Source: Parvibaculum lavamentivorans DS-1 (GTDB taxonomy: Bacteria; Pseudomonadota; Alphaproteobacteria; Parvibaculales; Parvibaculaceae). Taken from it: DNA of 64,000 nucleotides. Below the pieces are notes generated by a model. That model was not told the origin of the DNA, made no database searches, and saw nothing but the letters and a program-made list of their open reading frames with translations. Location: positions 2,153,001 through 2,217,000 of the forward strand of contig NC_009719.1 in NCBI RefSeq assembly GCF_000017565.1, in the 5' to 3' direction. The translations under genes were made by a program, and so were the position numbers. Positions 21,734-51,460 of the stretch are shown here, piece by piece (the stretch's first letter is position 1; every line of letters starts with the position of its first letter).

Positions 21734-21751
21734 TTTTGAATTGTCCCTTTC

Positions 21752-21925
21752 TTCCACCCTCCCCTTGGGGGAGGGTCAAACGGCTGCAAGCCGTTTGGGG
21801 CGGGGTCGCTGGAGAAAAGACAAATATCATCGCTCGCGAACCGGATGCTCGGGCGATGACCCCGCCCCGAAATTTGTTTCGCTGACGCTCACAAATTATC
21901 GACCCTCCCCCAAGGGGAGGGTGGC
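21752..21925. repeat. Composite inverted repeat built from CCACCCTCCCC palindromes
   Basis: The left end is a CCACCCTCCCC/GGGGGAGGGT palindrome followed by AAACGGCTGCAAGCCGTTT and GGGGCGGGGTCGC. The right end mirrors it with GCGATGACCCCGCCCC, an AT-rich section and a CCCTCCCC/GGGGAGGGTGG palindrome. The whole forms a mosaic resembling rhizobial RIME-type intergenic elements. No protein-coding potential is visible in the 21734-22062 gap. Confidence 0.6.
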
Positions 21926-21948
21926 AGGACAGGTGCATTCCCTCACCC

Positions 21949-22041
21949 CGTCATTGCGAGCGAAGCGAAGCAATCCAGGGGCCGCAAGCACTGCGCCTGC
22001 CGCCCCTGGATTGCTTCGTCGCTCCGCTCCTCGCAATGACG
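21949..22041. repeat. Dispersed inverted repeat (CGTCATTGCGAGCGAAG type)
   Basis: The left arm CGTCATTGCGAGCGAAGCG continues through CAATCCAGGGGC. The right arm is its imperfect reverse complement, ending TCGCAATGACG, with about 20 bases between. This sequence type is a well-known intergenic repeat scattered through many proteobacterial genomes. Confidence 0.75.
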
Positions 22042-22062
22042 CGGAGGGGACAAACTGAAAAC

Positions 22063-23259
22063 CTACCCCACCACCTCGATCGCCGCCCGCTCTTCCACCG
22101 TTTCCTCCGCCGACATCTCCTCCAGCGCGAGGTTGACGATGAATTGTTTGGCGCAGGCTTCCCAGGCGAAGTTCATCGCATAGGCCCGCGCGTCGTCGCG
22201 GTTGAGGCGCAAGGCGGCCATGCAGGCAGTCTTCAAATCTTCGTCCAGCGCGCCGGCTTTCATGCCATCCGGTGTAAAGGCGAGCACGTCGCCAGGTCCC
22301 TGCACGGGGTAGCCCGCTACCGGCGTTCCCGCCGCCATCGCCTCGATCAGCACGAGGCCGAACGTGTCGGTCCGGCTCGGAAACACGAAGACATCCGCCG
22401 CCGCATAGGCTTCCGCGAGTTCGGCGCCGAAAAGCGGCCCCGTGAAATGCGCCTGCGGGAAGCGTTTCTTCAGATATTCGAGCCTCGGTCCCTCGCCGAC
22501 GATCATCTTCGTGCCGGGAAGGTCGAGTTCGAGGAAGGCTTCGATATTCTTTTCCACCGCGACGCGCCCGACATTGAGCCAGACCGGCCGCGCGAGGCCC
22601 TTCGGATGCGCGTCCATCAGGTCCGGGCGGGGCCTGTAGAGATCGGTATCGACGCCGCGCGACCAGATCACGGGCTCGCCGAATCCCCGTTCCCTCAGTT
22701 CCTTCTGCAAGGAAGGCGTTGCCACCATCAGCGCCGAGGATTTCCTGTGGAAGCGGCGCAGGAATTCATAGCCCCATGAAAGCGGAATGCCGGTCCGCGC
22801 ATTCAGATATTCGGCGAAGCGCGTATGGAACGAGGTCGAGAAGGGGATGCCCTTGCGGACGCAGAAGCGGCGCGCGGCAAGTCCCAGCGGCCCTTCGGTC
22901 GCGATATGGATGGCGTTGGGGTTCGCCTCGCGGATCATGCGCGCGATCTTGCGGCCCGGAAAAAGCGCCAGCCTTATTTCCGGATAGGTCGGCATCGGCA
23001 CGGTCGTGAACATGTCGGGCGTGATGAAGGTCACTTCATGGCCCATGCCCTTCAGATGCGCCGTCAGTTGCTGCAGCGTCCGCACCACGCCGTTCACCTG
23101 CGGCGGCGCCGCATCCGACACGATCACGATGCGAAGCGTCTCGCAGAAGCGGCCGACATCGCGCGGCAAGGGCTTCCCACGCAACCGGCCGAGCAGGCGC
23201 GCGACGCGCCGCCGCCTGCTCGGGGCAGGGGAGAGAGCCGTTACTGATGTGTCATGCAT
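22063..23259 (-). CDS. GT4-family glycosyltransferase, probable glycolipid synthase (Agt-like)
   Basis: A 398-residue GT-B retaining glycosyltransferase. The acceptor half opens LRIVIVSDAAPPQVNGVVRTLQQLTAHLKGMGHEV. The nucleotide-sugar half has WLNVGRVAVEKNIEAFL and SRTDTFGLVLIEAMAAGTPVAG, in which the usual E-x7-E is D-x7-E. This is the MgtA/SqdX/Agt branch, which glycosylates lipid acceptors such as diacylglycerol. I start it at ATG 23259, one base past the stop of the metallophosphoesterase gene (TGATATG), so the two are coupled. Pho boxes upstream of that gene make the pair look like the PlcP-Agt module that replaces phospholipids with glycolipids under phosphate starvation. The sugar donor is not readable from sequence. 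Confidence 0.8.
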   Translation of the reverse strand: MHDTSVTALSPAPSRRRRVARLLGRLRGKPLPRDVGRFCETLRIVIVSDAAPPQVNGVVRTLQQLTAHLKGMGHEVTFITPDMFTTVPMPTYPEIRLALFPGRKIARMIREANPNAIHIATEGPLGLAARRFCVRKGIPFSTSFHTRFAEYLNARTGIPLSWGYEFLRRFHRKSSALMVATPSLQKELRERGFGEPVIWSRGVDTDLYRPRPDLMDAHPKGLARPVWLNVGRVAVEKNIEAFLELDLPGTKMIVGEGPRLEYLKKRFPQAHFTGPLFGAELAEAYAAADVFVFPSRTDTFGLVLIEAMAAGTPVAGYPVQGPGDVLAFTPDGMKAGALDEDLKTACMAALRLNRDDARAYAMNFAWEACAKQFIVNLALEEMSAEETVEERAAIEVVG

Positions 23260-23260
23260 A

Positions 23261-24229
23261 TCAGGCAGCCGTGGGTACGAGCAGGGCGTCGTCTTCATCC
23301 GCCGGTTCCGTCTCGCCATTCGCGAGTTCGGTGTCCCAGGAGAAGGTCTGCCAGGTGATGAGCGAGAGGGCGCCCGTTTCGTCTTCGCTGAGCGCGGTGC
23401 AGCTTTCCACCCAGTCGCCGTCATTGCAGTAGAGCACGCCGTCGAAGTCGCGGATTTCCGCGTGGTGGATGTGTCCGCAGATCACGCCGTCGACGCCGCG
23501 TTCGCGGGCCGAGCGGGCAACGGCGTGTTCGTAGCTCGATATATATTCGACCGCGTTCTTCACCCGGTTCTTCAGGTAAGCCGAGAGCGACCAGTAGGAG
23601 AGGCCGAAGAAGCGGCGGATTTCGTGCAGCCAGTTGTTGAGCGCGAGCGCCATGCCATAGGCGCGGTCGCCGAGATGGGCGAGCCATTTCGCGTATTTCA
23701 CCACGCTGTCGAACTGGTCGCCGTGAATGACGAGGAATTGCCGCCCGTCCGCCGTTTCGTGGATCGCCTCGCCGACGACGTCGACGCCGCCGAAATTGAG
23801 GCCGGTATAGTCGCGCAACGCCTCGTCGTGGTTGCCGGGCACATAGATGATGGTCGCGCCCTTGCGCGACTTGCGCAGCAGTTCCTGCACCACCGCATTA
23901 TGCGCCGCGTTCCAGTACCAGGACCGCTTGATGCGCCAGCCGTCGATGATGTCGCCGACGAGGTAGATGGTGTCGGCGTCGTTGTGGCGGAGAAAGTCGA
24001 GCAGCAGCTCGGCCTTGCAGCCGGGGGTGCCCAGGTGAATGTCGGAGAGAAAAAGCGTTCTGTGCTGTTTGCGGTGCCTGGGGCGCGGCCCCAGCAATCT
24101 TTCGTCGAGCCCGCCGCGCCTCGCCCTTGCACGGGCTGCTTCCTTGCGGGCTTTCTTCGCGGATTGAGGTGGCGCCGTTTCGCTCGCCTGCCGCGGCCTA
24201 TCGAACATCGTCGTATCGAACAGGGTCAT
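23261..24229 (-). CDS. Calcineurin-like metallophosphoesterase, LpxH/PlcP type (probable phospholipase C)
   Basis: A 322-residue dinuclear metallophosphoesterase. Metal motifs in order are LSDIHLG (Asp63, His65), VGDIIDGW, PGNHDE, VIHGDQFD and CGHIHHAE. Automated pipelines usually name such proteins UDP-2,3-diacylglucosamine diphosphatase (LpxH). However, it is longer than LpxH (about 240), it carries a 55-residue basic N-terminal extension, and most alphaproteobacteria use LpxI. Coupling to a GT4 glycosyltransferase and Pho boxes 130 bases upstream instead fit PlcP, the phospholipase C that strips headgroups from phosphatidylcholine and phosphatidylglycerol during phosphate starvation. That functional choice is inference from context. 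Confidence 0.82.
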   Translation of the reverse strand: MTLFDTTMFDRPRQASETAPPQSAKKARKEAARARARRGGLDERLLGPRPRHRKQHRTLFLSDIHLGTPGCKAELLLDFLRHNDADTIYLVGDIIDGWRIKRSWYWNAAHNAVVQELLRKSRKGATIIYVPGNHDEALRDYTGLNFGGVDVVGEAIHETADGRQFLVIHGDQFDSVVKYAKWLAHLGDRAYGMALALNNWLHEIRRFFGLSYWSLSAYLKNRVKNAVEYISSYEHAVARSARERGVDGVICGHIHHAEIRDFDGVLYCNDGDWVESCTALSEDETGALSLITWQTFSWDTELANGETEPADEDDALLVPTAA

Positions 24230-24333
24230 ATTCCTCGTCGATCGTTTTTGCGCCTCATGCGCCGGTCAATTCATCCGTCTGCGGAGCGCCTTGCCGTACC
24301 TCCGGGCCAGCCGATCCGTCTTTCGATGACCGG

Positions 24334-24389
24334 ACTATGCGCGCCCTTTGACAAGGTCTTGTGACAGTTCGATGACGTTTATGTGACAG
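24334..24389 (-). promoter_or_regulatory. Triple Pho box and putative promoter for the phosphoesterase-glycosyltransferase operon
   Basis: On the minus strand, CTGTCAC-N4-ACGTCAT-N4-CTGTCAC (24361-24389) gives three heptamers on an exact 11-bp period, matching the PhoB box (CTGTCAT-N4-CTGTCAT). A weaker CTTGTCA follows, then CATAGT (24334-24339) as a possible -10. Orientation is toward the phosphoesterase gene starting at 24229. Confidence 0.7.
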
Positions 24390-24546
24390 TGCCCGGCGGG
24401 TGGCGGGCGAGCCGCTTTATCCCCACATCCCTCCGGCATCGCGCCCGGTTATCCCCGGTTCAGAGGGCCGGTTGACCGGGGACAAGTTTTTCTGGCTAAT
24501 CCTCCGGCATCGAATTTCATCCCTTGTCGCAACGCATAACGGTTTT

Positions 24547-24564
24547 GTGACAGTTACGTGACAG
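24547..24564 (-). promoter_or_regulatory. Second Pho box in the divergent lipid-gene intergenic region
   Basis: GTGACAG-TTAC-GTGACAG on the plus strand is CTGTCAC-N4-CTGTCAC on the minus strand, a perfect 18-bp Pho box. It lies 20 bases before the likely start of the lipid kinase gene but points the other way, so it may feed the minus-strand operon, control the kinase gene from the reverse orientation, or repress it. Confidence 0.65.
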
Positions 24565-24584
24565 TTGGCCTCTGGAGCCCCGTT

Positions 24585-25466
24585 TTGGCGCTGCGCCGGT
24601 TCATCCATATCATCCTCAATCCGACCGCCGGCAGGCGCAAAAGACACCTGCTGGATGCTGTCATCGGACGTCTTCGCGCGGCCGGTGCCGATGTCACGAT
24701 CGAGCTGACGACAGCGGCCGGTCACGCCACGGAGCTCGCCCGAGCAGCGGCACAATCGGGCAAGCCGGATGTGATCGTAGCGGCGGGCGGCGACGGAACC
24801 ATCAATGAAGTTGCGCGCGGCCTGCTTGGACAAGGCGTACCGCTCGGCATTCTTCCGCTCGGCACGGCAAATGTGCTTGCCATCGAGATCGGTCTCCGTC
24901 CGCAGGCGGAGGAAGTAGCCTCGATGCTGCTTGGCGGGCCCGCGGAGCTGATGGGCACGGGCCTCGTGCAGGGAAAGATATTCCTGATGATGGTCGGCAT
25001 CGGCTTTGACGGCGAAGTCGTTCACGCAATCGATCCGCGCCTGAAACGCATGTGGGGCAAGGGCGCCTTCATCTGGTCCGGGCTCAAGGCATGGGTGCGC
25101 GGCCCGGGCCGCGACATTCTGCTCACAGTCGACGGACGAGAGAAGCGCGCCGCATGGGTCGTCGTCACCAATGGCCGCCACTATGCGGGGCCCTTCGTGC
25201 TTGCGCCGGATGCGGACATAACGCAGCCGGGGCTTACTCTCTTTCTCTTCAAGGGAAAGTCGCGTTTCGCCTTCGCACTTTATCTCGCCGCGCTAGGGTT
25301 CGGCATTGCGGCGCGGCTGAGCAGCGTGGAAGTATTGCCGGCGCGGCGGATCGATGTCACCGCACCGCACGGTCTCGCTGTGGAAGTTGACGGCGACGAC
25401 AGCGGCTTCCTGCCGCAGACGATAGAGCAGGGCACGCAGTTTCTCCGTCTCGTCATTCCCGGCTAG
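24585..25466 (+). CDS. Diacylglycerol kinase-family lipid kinase
   Basis: A 293-residue protein with the DAGK catalytic domain. It has NPTAGRRK at residues 12-19, the ATP-binding GGDGTINEVA near 68, the LPLGTANVLA motif and the GIGFDGEVVH region, as in DgkB/YegS/BmrU lipid kinases. It would phosphorylate diacylglycerol or a related lipid to phosphatidate. I choose TTG 24585 because TGGAG lies seven bases before it. The upstream GTG 24558 falls inside a Pho box, which argues against it. It is divergent from the phosphoesterase-glycosyltransferase pair, so it may return surplus diacylglycerol to phospholipid synthesis. The stop shares CTAG with the convergent gene. Confidence 0.82.
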   Translation: MALRRFIHIILNPTAGRRKRHLLDAVIGRLRAAGADVTIELTTAAGHATELARAAAQSGKPDVIVAAGGDGTINEVARGLLGQGVPLGILPLGTANVLAIEIGLRPQAEEVASMLLGGPAELMGTGLVQGKIFLMMVGIGFDGEVVHAIDPRLKRMWGKGAFIWSGLKAWVRGPGRDILLTVDGREKRAAWVVVTNGRHYAGPFVLAPDADITQPGLTLFLFKGKSRFAFALYLAALGFGIAARLSSVEVLPARRIDVTAPHGLAVEVDGDDSGFLPQTIEQGTQFLRLVIPG

Positions 25467-50271: not shown

Positions 50272-51289
50272 GGTACTGGTCCTGCGAGCGTTCGGCCCGG
50301 GTTGCGGCCTCAAACCTGCCATCGATGAAGACCGCGATCTCCGTTAATGCACGACGGGATTCAGGAAGCAGTGCTCCAAGGCGCTGCCAGCCATGCGGCA
50401 TTGGGGGATAGAGGCGGAATTCCGTTTCCGTCCCTCCGCGATGCAACGCTTCGTCAATGCGCACGGCGTCATCAAGAAGTATGTCGGAAGAGCTTACCTG
50501 GATGAGCGCGGGCGGCAGGCCGGAAAGATCGGCGAAGACAGGCGAGGCCAGGGGGTCGGCGGGCGTGTGCCCTTGCAGATAGAGCTCGCGGCATATCATC
50601 ATCATTTCAATATTGTTGGAGAGCGACGCCTTGCGCGCATTCGTCAGCAGCGAGCGGCCGGAGAGAGTGAGATCGGCCCACGGCGCGAGAAGCGTCATGG
50701 CGGCAGGCATGGGTAAGCCCTTGTCGCGCAGTTTTATCAACGCGCCAAGTACGATGCCGCCGCCGGCGCTATCACCCAGGATCTGCATCTGCCCGGGCGA
50801 GATGCCTTCCGCCAGCAGCCACTCATAGGCCGTCACCAGGTTGTTGAGTGCTGCGGGGAAAGGGCGCTCAGGCGCCAGGCTGTAGTTGACGGCCAGTGCC
50901 GATGCATGGGCCTGCTGGCAGATGCGTGCCGCGAGTGCATGGTGCAGCCGCGAGCGGCCGAAGATGAAAGACCCGCTATGCGCAAAGAGGATGATCCGCC
51001 CGGCTTCGGATTGCGGCATCGTAATCCAGTCGGCAGCCACAGGTGCGCAGGCTGCCTGCTCAACCTGCATGCCGCGGGGTGCGAATGTCATGAGGCTTTC
51101 GGCGCGGTGTACGACCGGTCGCGCGGTGGCGATGTCGAAGCTGGCAGCTCCATCCCTCATACGGGGCGTAAGTGGGCTGCCGACAATACCGAAGGCCGCG
51201 TTGAACATGCGACCGCGCCAGCTCGGTTTCGCTACGGGCGGTAAGGACCGAACTGCTGCTTCCGTAAATTCGAGTGTCCGAGCTGTCAT
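50264..51289 (-). CDS. Alpha/beta hydrolase of the hormone-sensitive-lipase family
   Basis: A 341-residue esterase/lipase. The nucleophile elbow is GDSAGGG (LGDSAGGGIVL), ahead of it the oxyanion motif reads AHSGSFIFG, where the family usually has HGGGF, and the catalytic Asp and His are in SSDILLDDAV and PPMPHGWQ. The HSL/type IV esterase assignment comes from GDSAGG and from the order of motifs. ATG 51289 is one of two candidate starts; a TTG at 51325 is weaker. It overlaps the LuxR gene downstream by eight bases. Substrates are probably short or medium acyl esters. Confidence 0.83.
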   Translation of the reverse strand: MTARTLEFTEAAVRSLPPVAKPSWRGRMFNAAFGIVGSPLTPRMRDGAASFDIATARPVVHRAESLMTFAPRGMQVEQAACAPVAADWITMPQSEAGRIILFAHSGSFIFGRSRLHHALAARICQQAHASALAVNYSLAPERPFPAALNNLVTAYEWLLAEGISPGQMQILGDSAGGGIVLGALIKLRDKGLPMPAAMTLLAPWADLTLSGRSLLTNARKASLSNNIEMMMICRELYLQGHTPADPLASPVFADLSGLPPALIQVSSSDILLDDAVRIDEALHRGGTETEFRLYPPMPHGWQRLGALLPESRRALTEIAVFIDGRFEAATRAERSQDQYHV

Positions 51290-51460
51290 GAGCGCATATC
51301 CCTGCTGCGGGGTGGCGAATGGCAAGCAACAGTCTCTTCCCAGTATGCCGTTAAAACCTGCGGCGCATCACCAATTTTGATGATTTCCGGATCCGCCCTC
51401 TCCCTATCGTGAAGCATCGCACGGCGCAGGGCTGGGGCGTATGGGCGTGGGAGGGGTATC

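Follow-up and report, generated by a model that had tools for sequence, protein, structure and literature searches.

Genes and boxes at the plcP–kinase locus

The analysis concerns a window of 64,000 nucleotides from Parvibaculum lavamentivorans DS-1 (contig NC_009719.1, positions 2,153,001 to 2,217,000), whose genome is a single contig of 3,914,745 bases. Within the window, a metallophosphoesterase gene (plcP) and a glycosyltransferase gene (agt) are divergent from a lipid kinase gene, and two arrays of Pho-box type, called here box 1 and box 2, lie in the gap between plcP and the kinase. We read the whole as a phosphate-starvation lipid-remodelling locus that would decide the fate of diacylglycerol (DAG), a reading to which we give close to an even chance. 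The features, in window coordinates, are as follows.

22063..23259, minus strand: agt, GT4 glycosyltransferase, predicted diacylglycerol glycosyltransferase (Pfam Glyco_transf_4 and Glycos_transf_1; directly 3' of plcP)
23261..24229, minus strand: plcP, predicted intracellular phospholipase C of the calcineurin-like metallophosphoesterase superfamily (Pfam Metallophos; trees; metal motifs)
24334..24339, minus strand: −10 of the plcP promoter, CATAGT, 10 nt past the fourth heptamer
24350..24356, minus strand: degenerate fourth heptamer CCTTGTC at the −35 place
24361..24389, minus strand: box 1, triple Pho box directed at plcP-agt
24472..24500, plus strand: candidate sigma70 promoter of the kinase (promoter A), TTGACC-17-GCTAAT (conservation in insert-bearing relatives)
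24536..24564, minus strand: box 2, triple Pho-box-like array within the kinase leader (perfect pair 24547–24564)
24574..24577, plus strand: Shine-Dalgarno-like GGAG of the kinase (from the sequence, by eye)
24585..25466, plus strand: YegS/DgkB-type lipid kinase, predicted diacylglycerol kinase, TTG start (DAGK_cat, YegS_C; GGDGTINE motif)

On the minus strand, from 24389 to 24361, box 1 consists of the heptamers CTGTCAC, ACGTCAT and CTGTCAC separated by ATAA and CGAA, with an exact 11-bp period and two deviations in the middle heptamer. In box 2, positions 24564 to 24547 form a perfect 18-mer, and a degenerate third heptamer extends the array to 24536–24564. The genes and boxes described in an earlier note on this DNA were borne out in their coordinates, the 11-bp period and the perfect double box. 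Four of the five Pho-box matches of the window with at most two mismatches fall within this gap. At up to three mismatches the window holds 15 matches, compared with a mean of 9.0 in shuffled sequences and at least 15 in 8 of 100 shuffles; the total is therefore not clearly above the shuffles, and it is the clustering in the gap that is unusual. TTG 24585 is the most likely start of the kinase: a start codon occupies this position in 26 of the 27 genomes compared, the window genome included.

The phosphoesterase, the glycosyltransferase and box 1

The product of plcP carries the metal motifs SDIH, GDIID, GNHD, HGD and GHIH and is 52% identical over 276 residues to the PlcP of Sinorhizobium meliloti, whose locus tag we take to be SMc00171. 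Two trees were built, one of 44 rows (34 PlcP or PlcP-like, 30 of them hand-picked from 91 found) and one of 31 rows, with the S. meliloti protein included in one of them. The split between PlcP and LpxH received 100/100 support in both, several LpxH branches being long, and the window protein grouped with S. meliloti and Methylocystis PlcP apart from LpxH (100/100). The LpxH models missed their cut-offs for this protein (TIGR01854, 41.2 vs 190.35 bits; NF003743, 44 vs 134). Among 40 genomes drawn from the phylum, nine LpxH proteins passed the cut-off with 198–368 bits, while the remaining matches, including the window protein, which does not pass it, scored at most 50. In addition, lpxI is present in the window genome (LpxI_C, 152 bits, at 3397774–3398181), so LpxH would not be needed there.

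The opposing view would make the phosphoesterase the lipid A enzyme LpxH, with the GT4 enzyme building surface polysaccharide and the boxes incidental. It draws on a weak similarity to LpxH (29% over 118 residues), on the PDB matches, which are LpxH entries, and on the LpxH models, which do match, though below cut-off. We consider it very improbable, as the trees, the identity to S. meliloti PlcP, the presence of LpxI and the conserved PhoB-type promoter described below all count against it, and LpxH was rejected. Judged by its sequence, the phosphoesterase is PlcP, as the earlier note had proposed, and its phospholipase C activity is predicted. Two of the three outcomes that would have refuted that note, a grouping with LpxH and the absence of lpxI, did not occur. 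The same note had warned that automatic annotation would hide this identity, and indeed 24 of 32 matching records of a plasmid collection are named UDP-2,3-diacylglucosamine diphosphatase although the LpxH models are not passed; the other eight list no gene at the match. Many PlcP-like genes thus carry an lpxH-type name, with the qualification that 11 of the 32 records are from Roseomonas and that the weaker matches may not be PlcP.

The GT4 gene lies directly downstream of plcP. Its product has only remote relatives in the PDB (best E 3.6e-9, a PimA entry). In a sample of named loci, the best 80 of at least 574 encoding a relative, of which 79 gave a PlcP reading frame, a GT4 relative was found on the plcP strand in 24 of the 26 loci with a divergent, adjacent kinase and in 35 of the 47 without one; the remaining six showed less than 1.5 kb upstream. 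Locus L164, one of the 26 with the kinase, is family genome G032 again. Beside the 3' end of agt, the intergenic sequence at 21740–22050 appears by eye to be inverted-repeat-like (ccctcccccaaggggaggg and similar).

In a PhoB-activated promoter, repeats with an 11-bp period run in tandem through the −35 region in the direction of the gene, and the −10 follows about 10 nt downstream. This is the layout of box 1: three heptamers, 4 nt, a fourth heptamer at the −35 place, 10 nt and the −10. Published work is referred to here as it stands in excerpts of the cited papers; the 11-nt repeats of PhoB sites are described in PMC4415409.

The conservation of box 1 was assessed in the 250 nt before plcP, with 300 shuffles for each of 30 family genomes, the window genome among them; these remained from 37 genomes after G002 and G034 gave no PlcP match and G005, G009, G012, G023 and G026 (fragments or contig ends) were left out. 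No shuffle equalled box 1 in the window genome, and an array in the plcP direction beat the shuffles (at most 3/300) in 26 of the 30. The full order, with a mostly CCTTGTT-like fourth heptamer and CATATT or CATAGT as the −10 at the exact place, was found in 12 genomes, and GAATAT or CTATAT stood at the same −10 place in six more, all of them members of the genus poor in the dispersed arrays described below. Fixed spacing of box, fourth heptamer, 10 nt and A+T-rich −10 is therefore kept in 18 of the 30 genomes; in the other 12, no clear −10 could be recognised there. Since the element also occurs in the six array-poor genomes, it is probably older than the dispersal of the arrays. From this footprint, box 1 is a PhoB-type promoter element of plcP, its response to PhoB being predicted. 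Of the Pho-box control claimed by the earlier note, this part is supported, whereas the idea that both boxes simply induce the locus is not.

On the grounds of homology and promoter footprint, plcP and the GT4 gene very probably form the known PlcP-Agt module under a PhoB-type promoter, with the enzyme activities, PhoB binding and lipids predicted. The window genome encodes a PhoB over its cut-off (361.7 bits) and a PstS-like protein below it (146.6 vs 206.6 bits). The earlier note's PlcP-Agt module is supported by the PlcP trees and the S. meliloti identity, but the novelty of this core was overstated, as plcP-agt with Pho boxes is already in print (PMC4796936, PMC8528852). The gene pair adjoins in marine bacteria, Phaeobacter MED193 and Pelagibacter HTCC7211 being among the known systems (PMC4796936), in Pseudomonas aeruginosa (PMC8528852) and in Methylosinus OB3b (PMC9239053), Pho boxes being present in the first two reports. 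The window locus shares with these systems the plcP gene adjoining a GT4 agt and differs from them in having a kinase of DAGK type that is divergent and carries a box in its leader. The S. meliloti PlcP, although in the same tree group, is adjoined by acyl-homoserine-lactone synthase and LuxR genes, with no agt or kinase gene listed next to it in the record seen, the gene table of which is incomplete.

The kinase, the insert and box 2

The kinase has the domains DAGK_cat and YegS_C with the GGDGT motif, which places it in the YegS/DgkB family. The solved structures closest to it carry the name diacylglycerol kinase and include DgkB 2qv7, and its TIGR00147 match lies just over the cut-off (119.1 vs 118.65 bits); DAG is the predicted substrate. 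The small membrane kinase DgkA was not found in the window genome. The kinase is directly divergent from plcP in 18 of the 30 family genomes and lies across about 4.9 kb in nine more, while three (G003, G027, G031) have no kinase at the locus. It is also at the locus in three of six distant members of the class (L083, L085, L087). Among the 26 kinase-bearing named loci, 24 of which have agt, 23 are from Alphaproteobacteria (Azospirillum, Novispirillum, Caenispirillum, Pacificispira, Reyranella and others); the record titles of L187, L191 and L198 give no class. As a gene neighbour, the kinase is thus a well-supported conserved partner of the PlcP-Agt pair, beside which the earlier note had placed it.

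In the nine close relatives with the longer distance (L032–L040), the roughly 4.9 kb between plcP and the kinase are occupied by genes on the kinase strand for an OmpR-type regulator, a histidine kinase, EptA and a PAP2 protein, the families having been verified in L034 only. Of these, the EptA and PAP2 genes immediately precede the kinase, and a box is present on either side of the insert. When the gap of the window genome is aligned with those of the relatives, most clearly in L032, its left part matches the plcP side and its right part the kinase side; box 1 and box 2 are thus separate elements that are adjacent in the window species. EptA makes DAG, DgkA recycles it, and mcr genes have PAP2 or dgkA genes linked to them (PMC7559476). 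The kinase of the relatives would accordingly stand between two DAG producers, an arrangement that resembles the published eptA/mcr-PAP2-dgkA clusters in having EptA and PAP2 genes next to a kinase. It differs in that the window genome lacks both DgkA and EptA and that the kinase is of YegS/DgkB type.

The insert was probably gained once in a subclade and lost twice, in the window lineage and in G001 with G022. This history is a leaning, drawn from a tree of the PlcP, Agt and kinase proteins in which the fork of the window genome and G011 has no support value and nearby forks are weak (69–81). As the tree leans this way, the directly adjacent plcP–kinase order was set aside as the untouched ancestral state. 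In G001 and G022, one box is left where their relatives have two.

Box 2 lies at −49 to −21 from the kinase start, and none of 300 shuffles equalled it in the 220 nt before the kinase of the window genome. A box just upstream of the kinase start (−45..−17 to −67..−39) was present in all 20 genus genomes with the kinase at the locus. It faced the plcP strand and was equalled by at most one of 300 shuffles, while the best array in the kinase direction had 6–9 mismatches. For seven genomes of other genera the corresponding shuffle counts were 0, 0, 1, 4, 8, 42 and 42 of 300.

Two candidate promoters of the kinase were recognised, both 5' of the box. Promoter A was found in all ten genomes with a separate box 2 (the window genome and the nine with the insert), eight times exactly and twice with one mismatch; its pairwise identity is 100% and 93% in the hexamers, 72% in the spacer and 62% and 36% in the flanks. 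Promoter B, CTCGCY-18-TATAAG, stands in nine genomes with one shared box, its spacer being 41% identical. At the −10 place after box 2 in the plcP direction, the ten genomes have at most three of six TATAAT letters, as against four of six for CATATT. Box 2 consequently does not have the layout of a PhoB-activated promoter, in orientation or in a −10, and the notion that both boxes are ordinary promoter boxes was rejected for these reasons. If the candidates are indeed promoters of the kinase, the box falls in the kinase leader, where bound PhoB should block the transcript, and box 2 fits repression of the kinase better than its activation. In Escherichia coli, PhoB represses its own gene from an antisense-strand site located at the −10 (PMC6194859). 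The likeness lies in an antisense-strand PhoB site lowering transcription, but the E. coli site is at the −10, whereas box 2 would be about 30–58 nt downstream of the inferred start of the kinase transcript.

Alternatively, the kinase may belong to the starvation response, recycling surplus DAG to phosphatidic acid, with box 2 as its activator. This was the role given to the kinase in the earlier note, and it is not supported by a box that faces the other strand, lies in the kinase leader and has no −10. The closeness of box 2 to the kinase would suit it, as would the enrichment of DagK alongside PlcP on phosphate depletion in Pseudomonas putida BIRD-1 (PMC5082522, where no gene pair is reported in the excerpts) and the kinase-facing boxes outside the genus that are listed below. 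In all 20 genus genomes, however, the box faces away from the kinase, and the roughly 16–38 nt between box and start codon leave too little room for a −10 and a start site together with a ribosome-binding site. We regard activation as unlikely.

Dispersed arrays and the proposed fate of diacylglycerol

Several observations weigh against the proposed control of the locus by PhoB. For box 1, the plcP-facing array is weak in four family genomes of other genera (G029, 275/300; G028, 12; G032, 15; G035, 49), and no array with fewer than seven mismatches was found before plcP in the six distant class members. The consensus promoter scan did not list promoter A. The promoter B motif was picked from the same sequences in which it was counted, so its hexamer identity is partly by choice; in G013, which has the insert, a copy also occurs on the side of plcP, an altered form is present in G027, where the locus has no kinase, and G007 matches neither promoter by these scans. 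The window genome encodes two further DAGK_cat proteins, and the locus kinase need not be its sole DAG kinase. In P. putida, DagK protein rises on phosphate depletion, which is the opposite sign (PMC5082522). Outside the family, the box faces the kinase in L173, L182, L187 and L218, and kinase-facing doublets with two mismatches occur near plcP in other genera of the family (L028, L029, L030). In favour of the reading, boxes facing plcP 8–26 nt before the kinase domain were found outside the family in L169, L172 and L194 (200 shuffles, p ≤ 0.005, as for the four kinase-facing boxes), while most other gaps examined there had no clear box. The geometry outside the genus is therefore mixed.

A further set of observations on the same side comes from the genome at large. 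The pattern (CYGTCAYN4)x3 at up to two mismatches occurs 72 times in the 3.9-Mb genome and a control pattern not at all, so that this type of array is not specific to the plcP–kinase locus. By their neighbours, according to a simple codon-score gene caller, 23 arrays are in convergent gaps. Tandem gaps have 28, of which 16 run with the genes and 12 are opposed to both neighbours; 13 are in divergent gaps and four within genes, with four unresolved. At least four of six TATAAT letters were present at the −10 place in 4 of the 72, against 2, 8, 6 and 5 at four control offsets, i.e. no excess. Most arrays thus do not appear promoter-like, and box 2 could be one of them: it is like them, and the associated GGGGACAA motif lies next to it. 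The motif TTRTCCCC/GGGGAYAA is near 54 of the 72 arrays, compared with 66 of 2000 intergenic points chosen at random in the window, and only four copies occur in the 64 kb, three of them in the plcP–kinase gap (24417, 24449, 24478). Of the ten genomes in which box 2 stands by itself, all but the array-poor G021 are rich in arrays, and the box 2 of G021 has three mismatches. Moreover, many PhoB sites of E. coli are inert (PMC10294691).

Triple arrays of the CTGTCATCGAACTGTCACCGAACCGTCAT type at up to one mismatch number 63 in the window genome and 9–79 in 14 other genus genomes, some of them incomplete, but the rest of the genus and every one of 34 further relatives searched have 0–1; a looser pattern raises some counts, to at most two in the array-poor genomes. 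The consensus varies between species and is common within each genome. Examples are the arrays at 206333–206361 and 3012903–3012931 of the window genome; at about 51000–51300, a PstS-like gene and a porin-like C-terminus (by eye) converge on a triple array. The strand of the arrays seems to track the sign of the local GC skew, with 22 of the 23 arrays at 1.05–2.35 Mb on the minus strand (observed without a statistic). CenR was set aside as a binder of the arrays, its published motif being TGA-N8-TGA (PMC9275681). The S. meliloti repeats in PMC9561847 are inverted, and nothing fitting was found in the open-licence literature on dispersed Pho boxes. Pho boxes counted by pattern in this genus are consequently not readable as a Pho regulon.

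These data would also allow box 2 to be an inert member of a lineage-specific, dispersed family of arrays, the kinase being a housekeeping recycler of DAG placed near its producers (PlcP and, in the relatives, EptA). The abundance of arrays with a species-specific consensus, the 39 of 72 that are convergent, opposed or within genes, and the TTRTCCCC/GGGGAYAA association speak for this. Against it, the offset of box 2 hardly varies among ten genomes, one of them G021, whose dispersed arrays are very few, and in the eight array-poor genus genomes that have the kinase a box occupies the corresponding position, shared in their case with plcP. On balance, we find an inert box 2 improbable.

We return to control by PhoB in opposite directions, put forward as the hypothesis that best reads the geometry in the genus. 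At low phosphate, PhoB would bind box 1 and start plcP-agt; PlcP would take the headgroups off phospholipids and Agt would add a sugar to the resulting DAG, which the divergent kinase would otherwise convert back to phosphatidic acid. When phosphate is plentiful, the kinase would be made from its own promoter. With PhoB active, its binding to box 2 in the kinase leader would block the kinase transcript, and the new DAG would go to sugar lipid instead of being re-phosphorylated. Drawn from geometry and comparison, a reciprocal PhoB switch in which box 2 blocks the kinase is possible, though we would not call it probable. A slightly more tentative proposal is that PhoB flips the fate of DAG at one gap, with plcP-agt on and the facing kinase off, and that selection kept both boxes even with 5 kb between them.

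The core module is known, and the kinase partner with a box in its leader is the new part. No open-licence paper was found that links PlcP-Agt with a divergent lipid kinase gene, or that joins PhoB, repression, diacylglycerol kinase and phosphate starvation; the single relevant paper listed that has PlcP together with diacylglycerol kinase is PMC5082522. The word "kinase" does not occur in PMC4796936 and PMC8528852, nor "diacylglycerol kinase" or "DAG kinase" in PMC9239053. Lipid remodelling draws on the DAG pool, and a DAG kinase would undo this work and use ATP; how cells avoid such a futile cycle is not addressed in the excerpts of the PlcP-Agt literature consulted (PMC4796936, PMC8528852, PMC9239053). 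The locus offers a conserved gene neighbour and, if the proposed control is true, a concrete candidate switch for that futile cycle.

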